A stretch of 36,946 bases of DNA from an uncultured Erysipelotrichaceae bacterium (lineage in GTDB: Bacteria; Bacillota_I; Bacilli_A; RF39; UBA660), in NCBI GenBank assembly GCA_902788975.1, contig CADAMI010000022.1, positions 1 to 36,946 of the forward strand, in the 5' to 3' direction. Shown piece after piece: positions 5,383-36,654 of this stretch. Each line of letters begins with the position of its first letter. Within the stretch, counting starts at the first letter, position 1. Position numbers and translations under genes: made by a program. The notes beneath the pieces are model-generated. The model had not been told where the DNA came from, did not search any database, and saw only the letters and a list, made by a program, of their open reading frames with translations.

Positions 5383-6241
5383 ACTTTATTATTTTATTAA
5401 ATTCTGATGGAATATCACTTTCAATGTGAATTAATTTTTTAGTAACCGGATGAATAAACTCTAATATATTCGCATGTAAACATAATCTTTTAATTGGATT
5501 AGTCTTACACTTATATTTTTTATCTCCGACAATCGGATATCCTTTCTCACTTAAATGAACTCTAATTTGATTTCTTCTACCAGTATCAATAAATACTTGT
5601 ACTAAACTATAGTTATTATTGCTTTTTAAAACAGAGTAGTGGGTAATTGCTTCTTTTCCTTGTTTATTTCTAGATGAATATACAAATTGTTGTTTATTTT
5701 CAAGTAGATATGAATGAATAGTTCCATTACCCGACAATTTACCATCGACAATTGCTATATAACCACGCTTCTTAACTATCGTATTCCAATTATCTTGCAT
5801 TTTATCTCTAATCTTTTCATTCTTACAAAACATTAGAACTCCTGACGTATCTTGATCTAATCTATGTACTACAAATATATAATTATTCTTATTATTTTGT
5901 TTAACATAATTAGATACCATTCTATAAGCTGTAATCTCTTTTTCCTTATCATTAGATATTGATAATAATCCACATGGTTTATTAATAGCAATTAAATAAT
6001 CATCTTCATATAAGATATCTAAGTTATATTCAGGCATTATTTTTTTACTATATGATATTTCAATCTTATCACCATCATGAAGGAGGTAACTACTATTAGT
6101 TATAACTATATCATTAACAGAAATCATGCCATTTTTTATATAATTCTTAATTGTTCTATTAGATAAATCTTTCTTAAAAATACTAATACTATTTAATAAT
6201 GTAATATTATCATGATTAATATAATCTTGTTTTTTATTCAT
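5381..6241 (-). CDS. RluA/RluD-family 23S rRNA pseudouridine synthase
   Basis: 286 residues. An N-terminal S4 RNA-binding domain (about 25-65, LSNRTIKNYIKNGMISVND) is followed by the RluA catalytic domain. The hallmark HRLDQDTSGVLMF at 126-138 carries the catalytic Asp129. NKPCGLLS near 88 and GRRNQIRVHLSEKGYPIVGD are further family blocks. The enzyme isomerises uridine to pseudouridine, most likely in large-subunit rRNA; the exact site cannot be read from sequence. The gene starts 4 bases after the stop of the acetyltransferase gene on the same strand, so the two are probably co-transcribed. Confidence 0.93.
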   Translation of the reverse strand: MNKKQDYINHDNITLLNSISIFKKDLSNRTIKNYIKNGMISVNDIVITNSSYLLHDGDKIEISYSKKIMPEYNLDILYEDDYLIAINKPCGLLSISNDKEKEITAYRMVSNYVKQNNKNNYIFVVHRLDQDTSGVLMFCKNEKIRDKMQDNWNTIVKKRGYIAIVDGKLSGNGTIHSYLLENKQQFVYSSRNKQGKEAITHYSVLKSNNNYSLVQVFIDTGRRNQIRVHLSEKGYPIVGDKKYKCKTNPIKRLCLHANILEFIHPVTKKLIHIESDIPSEFNKIIK

Positions 6242-25758: not shown

Positions 25759-25774
25759 TAAATAGGTGAAATAT

Positions 25775-26845
25775 ATGAAGAAACTATTGTTGTTTTTATT
25801 ATGTATAAATATCTTTGTTCCTTATGTCCAAGCATCGACAACTAGTGCCTATGAATATGTTTTAATGGATATGGATTCCGGTAGAGTACTCGCTAGTAAA
25901 AATAAAGATAATCCTAGACTAATTGCTTCCATTACTAAGATTATGACTGCTATTCTAGCTATTGAAAATAAAGATGTTGCTGATTTAGTTAAAGTAGATG
26001 AATCAATATCCAAAAGTTATGGTTCTGGCATTTATATATCTGTTGGTGAAGAAATAACTTTATTAGACTTATTATATGGCTTAATGTTAAGAAGCGGTAA
26101 CGATGCTGCTATTCAAATTGCTAATTATGTATCGGGAAGTGAAGAAGAATTTGCTAAATTAATGAATAATAAAGCTAAAGAATTAGGTATGAAGAATACT
26201 ATTTTTTATAATGCTAGTGGCTTAGATACAGAAAATATTGGTAATAAATCAACAGCTTATGATATGGCTTTATTAACTAGTTATGCTATGAAAAATGAAA
26301 CATATAGAACTATTGTTAAAACTAAAAAACATACTGTTAAAACGAATTTAAAAACCTATGTGTGGCATAATAAAAATAAGTTATTACAATATGACTATAT
26401 TACGGGCGGTAAAACCGGATATACTGAAAGAGCTAAAAGAACCCTCGTATCAACAGCAACAAAAGATAATATGAATTTAGTTGTCGTAACTATTAACGAC
26501 TCAGATGATTGGAATACACATAAATCACTATATGAATCTGCCTTTAATACATATAAAAGTATTAAAGTTTTAAATAAAAATAATTTTCAAGTATTAAAAG
26601 ATGATTATTATGATAAATTATATATTAAAAATGATGTTTTTTTAACTTTAAAAAAAGGTGAATCAAAATCTTTAATATCTCATATAAAATTAGAAAAGAA
26701 AAAGAATTATCAAGATGGTGATAAAGTAGGTACTAATTATATTTATTTAGGTGATAAATTAGTCCATACTGAAGATATTTATGCTAAAAAAATATCTAAA
26801 AAAGAATCATCGATTATTTCAAAGATAAAGTCGTGGTTTAAATGA
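25775..26845 (+). CDS. D-alanyl-D-alanine carboxypeptidase (DacB/DacF type, low-molecular-weight PBP)
   Basis: 356 residues from the ATG at 25775, behind TAGGTGA; the GTG at 25766 is inside that SD. A signal peptide (1-20, cut likely after VQA) is followed by the peptidase S11 domain: SITK with Ser52 and Lys55, SGN at 107-109, KTG at 213-215 (GGKTGYTERAKRTLVSTA). It trims the terminal D-Ala of peptidoglycan stem peptides outside the membrane. A C-terminal domain (about 265-340) and a basic amphipathic tail (SKIKSWFK) suit membrane attachment. Its TGA overlaps the spmA ATG. In B. subtilis the gene before spmA-spmB is dacB, which acts on the spore cortex. Confidence 0.95.
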   Translation: MKKLLLFLLCINIFVPYVQASTTSAYEYVLMDMDSGRVLASKNKDNPRLIASITKIMTAILAIENKDVADLVKVDESISKSYGSGIYISVGEEITLLDLLYGLMLRSGNDAAIQIANYVSGSEEEFAKLMNNKAKELGMKNTIFYNASGLDTENIGNKSTAYDMALLTSYAMKNETYRTIVKTKKHTVKTNLKTYVWHNKNKLLQYDYITGGKTGYTERAKRTLVSTATKDNMNLVVVTINDSDDWNTHKSLYESAFNTYKSIKVLNKNNFQVLKDDYYDKLYIKNDVFLTLKKGESKSLISHIKLEKKKNYQDGDKVGTNYIYLGDKLVHTEDIYAKKISKKESSIISKIKSWFK

Positions 26846-27420
26846 TTAACTATTTATTTGCCTCATTCTTTATTATTGGTATTGTTTATAGTATTATTAC
26901 TGGTAATTTAAATATAAGTAGTGAAATGTTAACCGCCTCAAGAAATGGCTTAGATTTACTTTTATCTATTATTCCTATTATGTGTCTTTGGTTAGGTATT
27001 ATGAATATTGCTAAAAAGAGTGGATTGCTAGATAAACTTGCCAAAATATTAACACCTATTCTTAAAATAATATTCCCAGAAATACCAGATAATAGTCCTT
27101 GTTTTAGTTATATTGGAACTAATATTATTATGAATATGTTAGGACTAGGTAATGCAGCTACGCCATTTGGCTTAAAAGCCATTAAAGAAATGCAATCATT
27201 TAATAAAGAAAAAGATACGGCATCAAGAAGTATGATTACTTTTCTAGTAATGAATACTGCTTGTGTTACTATTATGCCTACGACAATTATATCTTTACGT
27301 ATGTTATATGGCAGTGTTTCTCCAGAACAAGTTATTCCATATATTATTATAACTTCATCTTTATCATGTTTAATCGGCTTAATTATTGATAGATTATTTT
27401 ATGTGGTGAAAAATATATGA
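26842..27420 (+). CDS. spmA: spore maturation protein A
   Basis: 192 residues, several membrane helices, nucleoside-recognition ('Gate') fold family. The signature NIIMNMLGLGNAATPFGLKA (about 96-115) and KEMQSF match SpmA, and VMNTACVTIMPTTIISLR follows. ATG at 26842 overlaps the carboxypeptidase stop (ATGA). In B. subtilis SpmA and SpmB affect spore core dehydration, but homologues also occur in bacteria not known to form spores, so sporulation is not proven here. Confidence 0.93.
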   Translation: MINYLFASFFIIGIVYSIITGNLNISSEMLTASRNGLDLLLSIIPIMCLWLGIMNIAKKSGLLDKLAKILTPILKIIFPEIPDNSPCFSYIGTNIIMNMLGLGNAATPFGLKAIKEMQSFNKEKDTASRSMITFLVMNTACVTIMPTTIISLRMLYGSVSPEQVIPYIIITSSLSCLIGLIIDRLFYVVKNI

Positions 27421-27920
27421 TCTATATATCAAAAATAATTATTCCCTTAATTACTATCATTGTAATTATCTATGGCTTAATCAAAAAAGTAGATATCTAT
27501 AATGAATTTCTAGAAGGAGTTAAAGAAGGATTGCATCTATCTCTAGATATTTTTCCAAGTATGTTTGCTATGATTATCTCAGTAACTGTCTTGGTAAAAA
27601 GTAATATTATTACTGATTTAACTTCTCTTATTAATATTAATCTATTTCCCAAAGAAATACTCCCAATTGCTATTCTTAGGCCAATATCATCATCTTCATC
27701 ATTAATGATTTTAAATAGTATCCTATCTAGATATGGACCAGATTCCATGGTTGGAAAAATTGCTTCAATTATTACCGGTAGTACTGATACGACTATCTAT
27801 ATTATTGGTATGTATTATGCTAGTGTTAAAATAAAAAAAATAAAACATTCCCTAATCGTAGGTTTATTAGCTGATTTAACTTGTGTTATTATCAGTATTA
27901 TTATTGTAAATATATTATAA
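27417..27920 (+). CDS. spmB: spore maturation protein B
   Basis: 167 residues, membrane protein, partner of SpmA. SMFAMIISVTVLVKS, LRPISSSSSLMILNSILSRY, GPDSMVGKIASIITGSTDTT and YYASVKIKKIKHSL are typical SpmB blocks. ATG at 27417 overlaps the spmA TGA, giving a tightly coupled carboxypeptidase-spmA-spmB trio as in B. subtilis. The two halves SpmA and SpmB are thought to form one Gate-type membrane unit. A terminator follows directly. Confidence 0.93.
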   Translation: MIYISKIIIPLITIIVIIYGLIKKVDIYNEFLEGVKEGLHLSLDIFPSMFAMIISVTVLVKSNIITDLTSLININLFPKEILPIAILRPISSSSSLMILNSILSRYGPDSMVGKIASIITGSTDTTIYIIGMYYASVKIKKIKHSLIVGLLADLTCVIISIIIVNIL

Positions 27921-27954
27921 AAATAAAAGCAACCATTATAGGTTACTTTTATTT
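27921..27954. terminator. terminator after spmB, shared with the minus-strand small gene
   Basis: AAATAAAAG (27921-27929) plus AACC pair with GGTT plus CTTTTATTT (27946-27954), with one C/A mismatch, loop ATTATA. It can act in both directions; the last six codons of the minus-strand 47-codon gene run through it. Confidence 0.75.
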
Positions 27955-28079
27955 AGGTTAGACTGATTCATGTTATTACTATTGTTTGAACTATTACTAT
28001 TGCTATTATTGTTAGCATTAGTTTTGTTCATACAATTATTGCATGAATTAGCTCTATTTGACTTATTGTTTTTAGCCAT
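27936..28079 (-). CDS. 47-residue Asn/Ser-rich protein (hidden small gene)
   Basis: On the minus strand an ATG (plus 28077-28079) follows GGGTGATC at seven bases, a very good SD. The frame runs 47 codons to TAA at 27936. It begins MAKNNKSNRANSCNNCMNK and continues with runs of NNNSNSNSSNNSNN. About half the residues are Asn and a quarter Ser; there is one CNNC motif (13-16) and few hydrophobic residues. The hydrophilic, MAKN-type start and SN repeats recall small spore-associated or matrix peptides of Bacillota, but I cannot name a family. It lies between spmB and secA, convergent with spmB. The Leu-rich reading on the plus strand here is only its mirror. Confidence 0.65.
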   Translation of the reverse strand: MAKNNKSNRANSCNNCMNKTNANNNSNSNSSNNSNNMNQSNLNKSNL

Positions 28080-28110
28080 TTTTGATCACCCAATATTATT
28101 ATTTTCTAAA

Positions 28111-28139
28111 TTGACTAAATTATGTATAAAGACTAGTAT
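28111..28139 (+). promoter_or_regulatory. sigma-A promoter of secA
   Basis: TTGACT (28111-28116) and TAGTAT (28134-28139), 17-base spacer, then AGGAAGTGA before the ATG at 28184. Confidence 0.75.
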
Positions 28140-28183
28140 TTTTAATTTTTTTTTGATAAAATACATATTAAGGAAGTGAATAC

Positions 28184-30679
28184 ATGATAAAAATATTTAA
28201 AAAGTTATTCGATAATGAATATAAAGAACTAAAAAGATTTAATGCTATTGCTGAAAAAATAGATGCTCTAGATCCAGAATATACAAAAATGACAGATAAA
28301 CAGTTAGCAGCTAAAACAGATGAATTTAAAGAAAGACTAGCAAATGGTGAAACGCTTGAAGATATTTTAGTCGAAGCTTTCGCTACAATTAGAGAAGTTG
28401 CTTATAGATTAATTGGTGAAAAAGCTTACTTTGTTCAATTACTTGGTGGACTAGCTATTCACTATGGTAATATTGCCGAAATGAAAACTGGTGAAGGTAA
28501 AACTTTAACAACTATTTTTCCAGCCTATTTAAATGCTTTGGAAGGAAAAGGCGTACACGTTGTTACAGTTAATGAATATCTAACTCAAAGAAATGCTGAA
28601 TGGATGGGACCAATTTTTAACTTTTTAGGTTTAACAGTTGGTGTTAATTTAAGAAGTTTATCACCAAAAGAAAAACAAGAAGTATATAACTGTGATATTA
28701 CATATACAACTAATAACGAATTAGGATTCGATTATCTTAGAGATAACATGGTTGTAAGAAAAGAAGATCGAGTATCTAGAAAATTAAACTACTGTATTAT
28801 CGACGAAGTCGACTCAGTTTTAATTGATGAAGCTAGAACACCATTAATTATTTCTGGTGGAGTAATGCAAAATGTTAACTTATATGAACAAGCTGATATG
28901 TTTGCTAAAAGCTTAAAAGAGAATGTTGATTATATTAAAGATGAAAAGACTAGAACTATTAGCTTAACAGACGAAGGTAGTCATAAATGCGAAAAAGTAT
29001 TTAAAATAGATAATCTTTATGATATTAACAATACAGCTTTAGTTCATCACATTAACTTAGCCCTAAAAGCAAATTACTTTATGAATAGAGATGTTGATTA
29101 TGTCGTTCAAGAAGGACAAGTTATTATCGTTGACCAATTTACAGGACGCTTAATGCCAGGAAGAGCTTTCTCTGAAGGACTTCATCAAGCTATCGAGGCT
29201 AAAGAAAATGTTAAAGTTAATGAAGAAACTAAAACATTAGCTACCATTACTTTCCAAAATCTATTCAGAATGTATAATAAACTATCAGGTATGACAGGTA
29301 CTGCTAAAACAGAAGAAGAAGAATTTAGAAATATTTATAATATGTATGTTATAACTATTCCAACCAATAAACCAGTAATAAGAGTTGATGCTACTGATTT
29401 ATTGTATTCAAATAAACAGGGAAAATATAATGCTATTGTTAGAGTAATTAAAGAAAGACATGCTCTAGGTCAACCAATTCTTGTTGGTACTATTGCTATT
29501 GAAACTAGTGAATTAATCAGTAAAATGTTAACTAAAGAAAAAATACCTCATGAAGTATTAAATGCTAAAAACCATGCTCGTGAAGCTGAAATTATTGCCC
29601 ATGCTGGTGAAAAAGGCGCAGTTACAATCGCAACAAACATGGCTGGTCGTGGAACCGATATCAAACTTGGCCCTGGTGTTAAAGAATTAGGTGGACTTTG
29701 TGTAATAGGTACAGAAAGACATGAATCTAGAAGAATAGATAATCAGTTAAGAGGACGTGCTGGTAGACAAGGAGATCCTGGATTTAGTCAATTCTTTGTC
29801 TCATTTGAAGATGATTTATTAGTAAGATTTGGTTCTGATAAATACAAATCAATGATGGAAAGTATTGGATTTACTGGAGATCAAGCAATTAGAAATAATA
29901 TGTTTGCCAAAACCGTAGAAACGGCTCAAAAAAGAGTTGAAGGTAATAACTTTGATATCAGAAAACATCTTCTAAGTTATGACGATGTCATGAATAATCA
30001 AAGAACTATTATCTATGAAAAAAGAAATGAAATATTAGATAATGATTCAATTCATGAAACAGTACTTAATGGTTTTAAAGAACACATCACAAACTTAGTA
30101 ATGTCTCATTTAATCGAATCAAAGAAATTATCTGATAATGATTATGATGAAATAATCGAAGCTGCTAATGAAAATCTATTAAAGAAATATAAAATAACAC
30201 CATCAGAAATTAAAAATAAAGAATCTGAAGAAGTAATTGATATAATTTATGATAAAGTAGTAACTGATTATCAAGATAAATTAAAAGATATTCCTGAAGA
30301 AGTAGTTAATGAATTTGAAAAAGCTATTTCTCTAAGAGTAATTGACTCTAACTGGATGGATCATATCAGTACCATGAGTCACTTACGTGAAGGAGTAGGA
30401 CTAAGAGGATATGCCAATGAAAATCCACTTCAAGCATACACTATGGAAGGATATCAATTATTTGATAACATGTTAAATAAAATAAATAGTGAAATATCTA
30501 CATACTTATTAAAATCTGAAATAAGACAAAATACTGAAAGAAAAACAGTAGCTAAAAAAATGATTACCAACGATGGTAAAGATGCCATTAAAACTCAAAA
30601 GAAAAGTGACAAAGTTGGTAGAAATGATCCATGTCCATGTGGCAGTGGCAAGAAGTATAAACAATGTTGTGGTAAATAA
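28184..30679 (+). CDS. secA: preprotein translocase ATPase SecA
   Basis: 831 residues, standard SecA1 length. Walker A MKTGEGKTL (100-108), Walker B-like IIDEVDSVLIDEARTPLI near 203, preprotein cross-linking domain, second nucleotide-binding fold with NMAGRGTDIKLG and QLRGRAGRQGDPG, and scaffold and wing domains. It ends in the SEC-C zinc motif CPCGSGKKYKQCCGK (Cys3-type), which binds partners and phospholipid. SecA drives secretory proteins through SecYEG; secDF lies 10 kb upstream. SD AGGAAGTGA. The 3' end matters for this window: two relics of the same tail occur downstream at 35512 and 36807. Confidence 0.98.
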   Translation: MIKIFKKLFDNEYKELKRFNAIAEKIDALDPEYTKMTDKQLAAKTDEFKERLANGETLEDILVEAFATIREVAYRLIGEKAYFVQLLGGLAIHYGNIAEMKTGEGKTLTTIFPAYLNALEGKGVHVVTVNEYLTQRNAEWMGPIFNFLGLTVGVNLRSLSPKEKQEVYNCDITYTTNNELGFDYLRDNMVVRKEDRVSRKLNYCIIDEVDSVLIDEARTPLIISGGVMQNVNLYEQADMFAKSLKENVDYIKDEKTRTISLTDEGSHKCEKVFKIDNLYDINNTALVHHINLALKANYFMNRDVDYVVQEGQVIIVDQFTGRLMPGRAFSEGLHQAIEAKENVKVNEETKTLATITFQNLFRMYNKLSGMTGTAKTEEEEFRNIYNMYVITIPTNKPVIRVDATDLLYSNKQGKYNAIVRVIKERHALGQPILVGTIAIETSELISKMLTKEKIPHEVLNAKNHAREAEIIAHAGEKGAVTIATNMAGRGTDIKLGPGVKELGGLCVIGTERHESRRIDNQLRGRAGRQGDPGFSQFFVSFEDDLLVRFGSDKYKSMMESIGFTGDQAIRNNMFAKTVETAQKRVEGNNFDIRKHLLSYDDVMNNQRTIIYEKRNEILDNDSIHETVLNGFKEHITNLVMSHLIESKKLSDNDYDEIIEAANENLLKKYKITPSEIKNKESEEVIDIIYDKVVTDYQDKLKDIPEEVVNEFEKAISLRVIDSNWMDHISTMSHLREGVGLRGYANENPLQAYTMEGYQLFDNMLNKINSEISTYLLKSEIRQNTERKTVAKKMITNDGKDAIKTQKKSDKVGRNDPCPCGSGKKYKQCCGK

Positions 30680-30925: not shown

Positions 30926-32299
30926 ATGAAAAAAAATAAAAATTTAAAATGCATATTTATTATTATATTAATACTAATTGGAATTGTTTTATTCAGAAGT
31001 AATGGAAATATAATTAAAATAGAAACTATTAATAAAAAATACCAAGATATTCTTGATGATAAAATTTATTTGAAAAATATTGAATCTAATGATATTATTG
31101 CTAAAGAAGATATTAATGATAATTATATTAGCTATGCATTATTAGACTTAGATAATGATACGGTAGAAGAACTAATAATAAGAATAAACAATGGTAGTGA
31201 TTTTGAAATTAATATGTTTTATACAATAATTAATAAAAAAATAAAGTATATTGGTAAATTAACGCATTATGGTATTCTTGCTTATAATAAAAATGAAAAT
31301 GCAATCACATATAGCATAGAAAGACCAAGTTTAATTTATGGGCAAATATTAAAATATGATGAACTTAAAGACAATAAATTTAATAATGTTAAGAATCTAG
31401 TAGTAGATATTGATGAAAATGACAATTATATTTATTATTTTACTAATTCTCAAGGAAGCGATAAAACAATTATAAGTGAAGACGAATATAGCAAATACAT
31501 CGATGATAATAAAGTAATTGAATTTAAAGATATTGTTAAAAGTAATATTGATAATCAAGAAGAAAACAAAATGTTTGGTTCAATAAATGGTACTGCCGAT
31601 ACAATTGATGGTAAAACAATAATTGTTTCAATTTATGCAGATGACTATGGAACTAAATGGGATTTTAATAAAGACAAGGAAAGAATTGAAGATACATTTG
31701 ATAATTTAAAAATTGCTACCGAATATTTAAAAGAGCAAGTAAAAAAATATGGTAAAAACGCTACATTTATATATGATTGGGAAAAAAATTCTGATTTGAA
31801 ATATGAAGCCCAATTTACTGATGATATCGTGGCTTTGAATGGAAATTATGAGCTTCAAAGAGAATGGATTGTTAATAATATTGATATTGATAAACTTATT
31901 AACAAATATAAAGCCGATAATATTATTTTTATGTTTTTCTTTAATAACAAGGAATTCAAATTACATTCGGCATATACCTATAACAAATTTGATATAGAAT
32001 TAATTAATATGTTTTTACAAGAAGCCGAAGGAGATACATATCCAGCAACATATGCACACGAAATAATGCATACCTTTGGCGCACCTGATCTCTATATGGA
32101 AAATGATATAATTAATGAAGATTATATTAATTATTTGATTGATATTAATTCAAATGACATAATGCGTACAATATCTCCAGGTAAAGAAATTACGAATACT
32201 TTTTCATCATTAGACGCTTATTATGTAGGATTAATTAATAGCCATGAAGATATTGAAAAATGGAATTTAGGTATAAGCGAACATTTAATAGAAAATTAA
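30926..32299 (+). CDS. membrane-anchored zinc metallopeptidase candidate
   Basis: 457 residues. One N-terminal helix (about 8-24) anchors it, and the rest is outside. An N-terminal domain has YALLDLDNDTVEELIIRI (about 70-87), like the 24449 protein. A middle part follows (GTADTIDGKTIIVSIYADDY). The C-terminal peptidase region has YAHEIMHTFGAPDLY with HEIMH at 378-382. The HExxHxxGxxD arrangement (third ligand Asp386 or so) is that of metzincin/M6-like zincins. It also has DIMRTISPGKEI, which could be a Met-turn region. The family is not certain. SD AAAGAGGTGTGAT. It is the first gene of the accessory zone behind secA. Confidence 0.75.
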   Translation: MKKNKNLKCIFIIILILIGIVLFRSNGNIIKIETINKKYQDILDDKIYLKNIESNDIIAKEDINDNYISYALLDLDNDTVEELIIRINNGSDFEINMFYTIINKKIKYIGKLTHYGILAYNKNENAITYSIERPSLIYGQILKYDELKDNKFNNVKNLVVDIDENDNYIYYFTNSQGSDKTIISEDEYSKYIDDNKVIEFKDIVKSNIDNQEENKMFGSINGTADTIDGKTIIVSIYADDYGTKWDFNKDKERIEDTFDNLKIATEYLKEQVKKYGKNATFIYDWEKNSDLKYEAQFTDDIVALNGNYELQREWIVNNIDIDKLINKYKADNIIFMFFFNNKEFKLHSAYTYNKFDIELINMFLQEAEGDTYPATYAHEIMHTFGAPDLYMENDIINEDYINYLIDINSNDIMRTISPGKEITNTFSSLDAYYVGLINSHEDIEKWNLGISEHLIEN

Positions 32300-32575: not shown

Positions 32576-32860
32576 GTGGCAAAAAAAGGTCAAAAATATA
32601 ATAAATATTCTTATGAATTAAAAATGGAAATTATTAATAAATATTTAAATAGTGATGGTGGTTATGCTTCTTTATCAAAGGAATACAATATTCCATATAA
32701 GACGATTGATATGTGGATTTATCAATATAAACATTTAAATCACGATATGAAAAATCATAAAAAAGGTAGAAAAAAAGAAGAAAATATAGATTATAAAGAA
32801 AGATATGAAATATTAAAAAAATACCAAGCCTTCCTAAAGGCACAACGAGAGAGAAAGTAA
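32576..32860 (+). CDS. IS3-family transposase OrfA (HTH)
   Basis: 94 residues starting at GTG 32576 behind GTGAGGTG. A helix-turn-helix lies at about 10-50 (YSYELKMEIINKYLNSDGGY, then LSKEYNIPYKTIDMWIYQYK), then a basic hinge KNHKKGRKKEE and a coiled coil ending ILKKYQAFLKAQRERK. The codons tta-aaa-aaa-tac (32813-32824) contain the heptamer A-AAA-AAA, the classic site at which this family shifts to the -1 frame to make OrfAB. Confidence 0.85.
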   Translation: MAKKGQKYNKYSYELKMEIINKYLNSDGGYASLSKEYNIPYKTIDMWIYQYKHLNHDMKNHKKGRKKEENIDYKERYEILKKYQAFLKAQRERK

Positions 32861-32885
32861 CATTTATAAATTTATATATTAATAA

Positions 32886-33629
32886 ATAAGTAGACGAACT
32901 TATTATAAATATAGGAATGCTGATGATCCAGATTATATAGATTATTTAATGATTAAAAATATATTTAATAAATCTAAAGGCACATATGGATATCGAAGGA
33001 TAACCGAAGGCTTAAAGATTGAATATGGTGTAATATTTAATCACAAAAAGGTAGCTAGAATAATGAAAAAATATTATTTAAAACCGAAATATATAAAGAG
33101 AACAAGACCAAATACTTATAAAAGAATTGAAGAAAATGTTCAACCTAATATATTAAAAAGAAATTTTAAAGCTGATAAACCAAATCAAAAATGGACAACT
33201 GATATTACGTATTTGATATTTCAAAACAAACGGTTATATTTATCTACAATTTTAGATTTATATGATAGAAAAGTAGTTTCATATAAAATATCAAGGTTTA
33301 ATAATAATCAATTAGTTGTTGATACATTGAATGAAGCTATTTCAAAAAGAAAAGATGTACATGGACTTATCATTCACAGTGATCAAGGATTCCAATACAC
33401 ATCTTTTGAATACAAATCCATTTGTAAATCTAATGGAATTACTATTTCTATGTCTAGGAAAGGTACCCCAATAGATGATTCACCAATGGAAAGTTGGCAT
33501 GGTATCTTAAAAAAAGAAACCTTGCACAATAATAATATCACATCTTTACAAGAATACCAAAAACTTGTAGAAGATTGGATATTATTTTACAACACAACCA
33601 GATTAAAGTCAAAAAAGTCCAAAAAATAA
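32886..33629 (+). pseudogene. IS3-family transposase OrfB (DDE integrase), N-terminus disrupted
   Basis: After a -1 shift in orfA the frame reads REKVTFINLYINK and stops at TAA 32887-32889. The family text resumes in another frame at 32886 as ISRRTYYKYRNADDPDY and continues to 33629. By comparison with IS150-like OrfB, a dozen or so codons (the rest of the N-terminal HTH) are missing between the two pieces, and the frame is broken there. The rve core is intact: TTDITYL (first Asp), HSDQGFQYTS (second Asp), MESWHGILKKE (Glu). It ends KSKKSKK, earlier than the usual ...LSPxxYR tail. The first ATG in frame is at 32949 (226 residues). Confidence 0.8.
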
Positions 33630-35872: not shown

Positions 35873-36654
35873 ATGGAAATAAGTAAACTAAAACAATTAC
35901 TAATTCAATCTTGGAATTTGGAAACATGTTCACCAGGATTAAGAGATAAATGGAGTGAAGAAAATCCATCATTAGGACAGTGTGCAATTACAGCTCTAAT
36001 AGTAAATGATTTCTTTGGCGGAAAGATTATGAGATGTATGGCATCATCTGGAAGTCATTACTACAATATAATAGATGATTAACAGTAGAACAATTTTTAG
36101 GAGAAATTCCCCAATATGAAAATGGTGAAGAAAGAACAAGAGAATACTTGTTAAATAACAAAGATACAAAAAATAGGTATGAGAAATTACTTTATAATTT
36201 AAAACAGTCACTTAGACAGTTTCAAGGCAAACAGTTCAGATTAATTGATCGCAATGGACAAGAGTATTTGAGTAATACTCCAGGAACATTAGGTGGCAAT
36301 AGAAAATTAAAAATATATGGAAGACTTGACTGCCCATCAGCCAAAAGATGGATTGAAAAAGGTTATTATATTTCTAACAGAGTTTTTTTTGAAAATGAAG
36401 ACATAGCAATTGCTGCCGGATATCGTCCATGTGCAAAATGTATGCCTGATAAATATAAAGAGTGGAAAAATGACCAAATAAAAAAAAATAGATTTCAAAT
36501 GTGTGTTGATCAAAGAACACAATTTATGTCAGAAGAAGTTTCACAAGAATTTAGAGATCTTTTACAATTATGTAGTAACCAACTTTATCTTGATGATAAC
36601 CAACTTTATCTTGATGATGATGGAATGGTAAAACAGAAGAAGAAAAAATTATAA
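35873..36654 (+). pseudogene. YunG-like protein fused to an Ada-type zinc domain, broken by a one-base deletion
   Basis: The first frame (35873-36082, 69 codons) has the YunG pattern: SWNLETCSP, WSEENPSLGQCAITALIVND, FFGGKI, HYYNIIDD, then TAA. At 36077-36084 the text GATTAACA lacks one T; with GATTTAACA it would continue DDLTVEQFLGEIPQYENGEE, as YunG proteins do, into the second frame. That frame runs to 36654 and contains an Ada-like zinc domain: IYGRLDCPSAKRW, then NRVFFENEDIAIAAGYRPCA and KCM. This keeps Cys at three Ada positions, with Lys at the fourth. Ada zinc domains bind DNA phosphates or zinc; YunG has no known role. Near the end NQLYLDD occurs twice through an exact 21-bp duplication. 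Promoter and SD look intact, so the break is recent or a sequencing error. Confidence 0.75.
36577..36618 (+). repeat. exact 21-bp in-frame tandem duplication
   Basis: AACCAACTTTATCTTGATGA plus T occurs at 36577-36597 and again at 36598-36618, doubling NQLYLDD without breaking the frame. Confidence 0.95.

Follow-up and report, generated by a model that had tools for sequence, protein, structure and literature searches.

An overlooked Asn-rich small-protein gene between spmB and secA with a predicted forespore-type promoter

Between spmB and secA, the window (the whole 36,946-nucleotide stretch of DNA analysed here) carries a 47-codon minus-strand gene, 27936–28079, which comparative sequence analysis indicates is a real small protein gene: its start, Shine-Dalgarno (SD) sequence and frame are conserved, and it is under purifying selection. 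The original prediction had singled out this frame as an overlooked gene, and conservation, purifying selection and an own promoter and terminator now give that claim strong support. Judged by profile comparison, the gene is outside every named family of small acid-soluble spore proteins (SASPs). From its promoter and the character of its product, we consider it probable, though well short of assured, that this is a lineage-restricted forespore gene (sigma-G/F type) for a small disordered spore protein resembling the minor SASPs.

The gene, its neighbours and its relatives

The minus-strand frame comprises exactly 47 codons plus TAA, with its ATG at 28079. The full 47-residue product, MAKNNKSNRANSCNNCMNKTNANNNSNSNSSNNSNNMNQSNLNKSNL, is Asn/Ser-rich (MAKNNKSNRANSCNNC...NLNKSNL), with two Cys and a net charge of +5. 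Its SD, GGGTGATC (28084–28091, minus strand), ends 4 nt before the ATG; its GGTGATC is complementary to the usual 3′ end of 16S rRNA. The GGGTGAT of this site is kept in all 14 aligned orthologues, its first G lying 11 nt from the ATG in ten of them and 12 nt in the other four (L013, L060, L067 and L072). The GTG within the SD was rejected as a common start codon because it is out of frame in these four members, which fixes the ATG as the start. SD, frame and location between spmB and secA are as predicted, and the Leu-rich mirror frame said to mask the gene is present as a 69-residue plus-strand ORF (27970–28179).

The small gene is convergent to an spmB-like gene (27417–27920, 167 aa) and divergent from secA (28184–30679), both on the plus strand. 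A plus-strand row headed by a D-Ala-D-Ala carboxypeptidase gene (25766–26845; PF00768, PF07943) continues with an spmA-like gene (26842–27420; PF07670 Gate), giving the gene order dacB/dacF-spmA-spmB. Pfam returned no family match for the window's SpmB-like protein; the spmB label is nevertheless reasonable, since homologues retrieved with it (L120, L131 and L114) match PF07670 Gate above the cut-off and the preceding gene is also a Gate protein. Such divergence of the SpmB-like protein may explain why spmB is listed as reduced or absent in RF39 by a survey based on annotation (PMC10868615).

A search for conservation in relatives had been proposed with the prediction, and start, SD and frame proved to be kept across 14 orthologues. 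These sequences, 13 from SpmB loci plus the window's own copy, fall into four groups and encode 43–51 aa; all have kept an M-[AG]-K start, a high Asn content and one or more Cys. The 13 came from an SpmB-alignment scan of GTDB contigs that yielded 80 named loci, 75 of them extending 1 kb or more beyond the spmB match on its downstream side. In one (L057) the gene adjoins secA about 2.3 kb from spmB, so the neighbourhood argument for a spore role is weak alone. Most of the SpmB relatives bear the label uncultured Bacilli, Tenericutes or Mollicutes, and one is Candidatus Faecisoma merdavium, whose genus is placed in the GTDB order RF39 (PMC8035907); the carriers are uncultured Bacilli, probably of this order.

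With the single peptide as query, a search of 291 family genomes retrieved a copy beside secA in another genome of the same genus (G193, 57% identity) and one downstream of spmB in another genus (G185, 55% identity). At high E values, both the single-sequence and the profile searches returned mostly low-complexity matches. Among 12 of the 291 genomes matched at E ≤ 1, only G193, G185 and the window's genome (G000) were accepted as real; frames read at 5 of the 12 loci gave no further orthologue, and the remaining loci were judged by long open frames alone. A further search matched 14 of 386 genomes, with only G000, G193, G061 and G185 real and no further orthologue at the loci read beyond the first two. 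A secA match was found in 56 of 60 genomes, and the region upstream of secA was read in 30 loci. The gene was present in all five genomes of the genus that had a secA match (G000, G061, G193, G292 and G293, out of seven examined; G285 and G291 had no secA match) and in 0/25 secA loci from other genera. With profile A3 at E ≤ 0.1, matches occurred in 7 of 386 family genomes, of which G098 was not counted as real (it lies inside a 1,081-residue frame), while the carrier G061 was missed. Together with 5 of 288 order genomes matched by profile search, this indicates that the family is narrow.

Promoter of the small gene

Upstream of the window's gene, on the minus strand, stand a predicted −10 element, AATAATA (28097–28103), and, 17 nt from it, a predicted −35 element, ACATA (28121–28125). 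Across the orthologues the −35 reads GTATA, ACATA or GAATA. The nine orthologues outside the window's genus share the arrangement GNATA or ACATA, 17 nt, CATAATA or CATATTA, 5 nt, GGGTGAT. The predicted −10 is CATWHTA-like and weaker within the genus (AATAATA).

As an independent test, we turned to the alpha/beta SASP genes of relatives and examined their promoters. PF00269 (alpha/beta SASP) matched in 24 of 40 relatives, the window's genome included. The SASP promoters that could be placed read GTATG, GTATT or ACATA, 17 nt, then CATTCTA, CAACCTA, AATAATA or similar. A weight matrix was built from 12 SASP promoters of the lineage, chosen and aligned by eye, with the spacer fixed at 17 and no copy of the small gene included. 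These 12 came from 20 loci; L147 was left out as placed out of register, L141, L142 and L143 because no promoter could be placed, L150 and L154 for want of an ORF, and L157 and L158 because the wrong gene had been taken.

The SASP matrix found its best position at one common register upstream of all 14 orthologues. At this predicted register the lineage means were 2.6, 11.1, 8.2 and 7.3 bits (average of the four, 7.3), and the four-lineage average reached at best −6.2 bits at 23 other registers. Measured against 513 upstream regions of long ORFs, members outside the genus score within the top 1–3%. The match to a forespore sigma-G promoter, read from sequence, is weak in the window's genus: the window's own promoter scored 2.3 bits, a value reached by 11% of the 513 regions, and that of L058 scored −2.8 bits, at 51% and thus no better than background. 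When 1.23 Mb (both strands summed) was scanned for the pattern of −35, 16–18 nt, CATWHTA, SD and start, 13 of the 19 hits listed were the small gene (nine separate loci and four further copies, in L135–L138), and one further hit was a gene for a DUF1540 protein.

The window's genome encodes a sigma-G-like protein, its best match to TIGR02850 (E 2.9e-99); all sigma-G hits in the 40 genomes fall below the cut-off of that model, which none of the 40 passes. It also carries a separate alpha/beta SASP gene on contig C37 (E 5.6e-21). The promoter, together with such sigma-G-like and SASP genes in the genomes, supports the link to spore material that the original prediction had offered as inference.

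The leading alternative is that the gene is real but vegetative, with ATAATA as an ordinary sigma-A −10, a short leader and a non-spore role; we regard this as unlikely. The window's AATAATA suits sigma-A about as well as sigma-G, and ATAATA followed after 2–9 nt by GGTGAT and after a further 3–6 nt by ATG occurs at 15–25 sites per genome in 9/9 genomes (G000, G193, G061, G292, G293, G185, G052, G373 and G279), against 0–1 for the reversed pattern. Because the combination is so common genome-wide, we rejected ATAATA plus GGTGAT as a marker of sigma-G genes, and the promoter evidence lies instead in the CAT, in the −35 and in the register that all members share. On these points the sequences argue against a vegetative promoter: 9 of 14 have CATAATA or CATATTA with GNATA or ACATA at the 17-nt spacing of the SASP genes, and inspection of the upstream sequences revealed no TTGACA-like −35 in a common register.

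Two observations go beyond the small gene. The frequent ATAATA-GGTGAT-ATG sites suggest many very short leaders in the lineage. In several spmB loci, a plus-strand lipoprotein-like gene (L104:1738–2289, L102:1656–2204, L099:759–1322 and L129:600–1226) scored near the top of all tested upstream regions for a SASP-type promoter, and may be another forespore gene.

Predicted product and proposed role

The 14 proteins are hydrophilic, with 9–21 Asn, 1–4 Cys and a net charge of +1 to +6; in one sub-group the C-terminus is acidic and the net charge is +1 to +3. AlphaFold, given the 14-row alignment, predicted no secondary structure (mean pLDDT 59, pTM 0.13), which fits disorder and proves little for so short a protein. 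Searches of the 14 members against Pfam and NCBIfam gave no real family match, the sole two hits being chance ones to serum albumin (0.062) and inositol dehydrogenase (0.88). None of the 14 matched a SASP profile of either library at E ≤ 1, PF00269 included; each minor SASP family presumably has a model in these libraries. The literature consulted named no such gene, and a global small-protein catalogue (PMC11364881) may well contain the sequence.

On the forespore reading, the ACATA-N17-AATAATA promoter would be recognized in the forespore by RNA polymerase of the sigma-G (or sigma-F) type, and the small gene would be transcribed on its own. The leader would be very short, about 11–15 nt, placing the GGGTGAT SD almost at the 5′ end, and transcription would stop at a hairpin overlapping the end of the ORF. 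The predicted product of about 5 kDa would be disordered and hydrophilic, with much Asn, Lys and Ser and the 1–4 Cys of the family. It would most likely accumulate in the spore core and act like a minor SASP, perhaps with a part in packing, in hydration or in association with nucleic acids, and as a store of amino acids. The sequences show coding constraint, a conserved start and SD, a conserved promoter of SASP type and a terminator; time and compartment of expression, accumulation of the protein and this role are what we infer.

The closest parallels are the minor SASPs of Bacillus (SspH–SspP, Tlp), which are likewise tiny, mostly narrow in spread and often unannotated. The small-gene proteins differ in being very Asn-rich, in carrying Cys, in matching no SASP profile and in occurring in an uncultured Bacilli lineage. 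SASP genes depend on sigma-G, and sspO and sspP (48 aa each) are among the sporulation genes omitted in genome annotation (PMC3533761). The alpha/beta SASP genes of the same genomes have the same promoter architecture and spacing as the small gene, but a longer leader and a GGAGG-type SD. DUF1540 (PF07561) offers another likeness: the protein is small and bears Cys, and in L076 its gene (5850–6008, plus strand) has GAATA-N17-CATACTA just before its SD. DUF1540 is a separate family with a denser Cys pattern, and none of the 14 members matched PF07561. In Bacillus subtilis, a similar overlooked short sporulation ORF was reportedly described by Schmalisch et al. in 2010, going by the title.

The original prediction had also entertained envelope material, a link that finds no support, since a promoter of forespore type suggests a place inside the spore, and inspection by eye showed neither a signal peptide nor a hydrophobic stretch (5–11 hydrophobic residues in 43–51 aa). 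Close to the envelope idea is an improbable alternative, in which a mother-cell gene under sigma-E or sigma-K would encode Cys-cross-linked coat or outer-layer material. All 14 proteins do have at least one Cys, and in Bacillus subtilis the neighbouring dacB, spmA and spmB belong to the sigma-E genes of the mother cell. However, the gene lies outside the spmAB operon on the opposite strand with a promoter of its own, this promoter agrees with the SASP matrix in spacing and −10 rather than being of mother-cell type, and no coat family in Pfam or NCBIfam was matched by the members.

If the forespore reading is carried further, the family might be a new class of spore-core protein, disordered, Asn-rich and with Cys, that only genome-reduced gut Bacilli possess. 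It would be made from a near-leaderless forespore mRNA and replace the minor SASPs that these bacteria lack, with hydration or thiol chemistry as its means of protecting the core. This extension is speculative, and we would not expect it to hold in full; if true, the class would protect the cores of fragile, host-transmitted spores. Spore formation, with unusual sets of genes, is predicted for RF39 (PMC10868615), and whether and how these uncultured gut Bacilli sporulate has so far been deduced solely from lists of genes. A small gene family recognizable by its forespore-type promoter would be a concrete marker, and the SASP-derived matrix would offer a route to predicting the sigma-G regulon in such genomes and could find other tiny spore genes dropped by annotation.

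Coding constraint, terminator and the rest of the window

Substitution patterns point to selection on the encoded protein. dN/dS was 0.09–0.65 in 12 of 13 chosen orthologue pairs, the remaining pair being saturated, and changes at third positions were strictly the most frequent in 11 of the 13, with one tie and one pair (L013/L056) failing. Four gap-free pairs had a pN/pS of 0.20–0.29 in the true frame, the lowest of the six frames in three of them; for L064/L069 a mirror frame gave 0.27 against 0.29 in the true frame. An intergenic alignment of six genomes showed that length changes within the ORF preserve the frame.

Folding revealed a predicted terminator on the minus strand at 27921–27954, a 14-bp hairpin with a U-rich tail (−15.6 kcal/mol, z −6.5, on the minus strand; −10.8 kcal/mol, z −4.1, on the plus strand). 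A terminator scan found none here because it requires stems with G-C pairs. The last codons of the ORF form one arm of the hairpin, and the stop TAA (27936–27938) lies in the loop. As the hairpin starts beside the spmB stop, the terminator is probably shared. It is kept in five genomes of the window's genus, to which an NKSN[LF] protein tail is confined, the proteins of the other groups ending differently; this tail may accordingly reflect the terminator, not the protein.

A short transcript unit with a strong hairpin would also suit a small regulatory RNA in which the ORF is incidental, a reading made very improbable by the codon-wise constraint, the in-frame indels and the conserved SD and start. 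Least credible of all, to the point of being negligible, is a frame left open by chance because the DNA is AT-rich, or a shadow of the Leu-rich plus-strand frame, for although low-complexity AAT/AAC codons could produce one and the mirror is mostly open too (no stop in 5 of 14 orthologues, one in 9), several lineages conserve the specific minus-strand SD and promoter, which contradicts it.

Elsewhere in the window, inspection by eye picked out a putative secreted or membrane zinc metallopeptidase with an HEIMHTFGAPD motif (30926–32299), two frames resembling an IS3-type transposase pair (32576–33629) and a frame (36148–36654) whose Cys segment, CPSAKRWIEKG...RPCAKC, resembles the metal-binding one of Ada.
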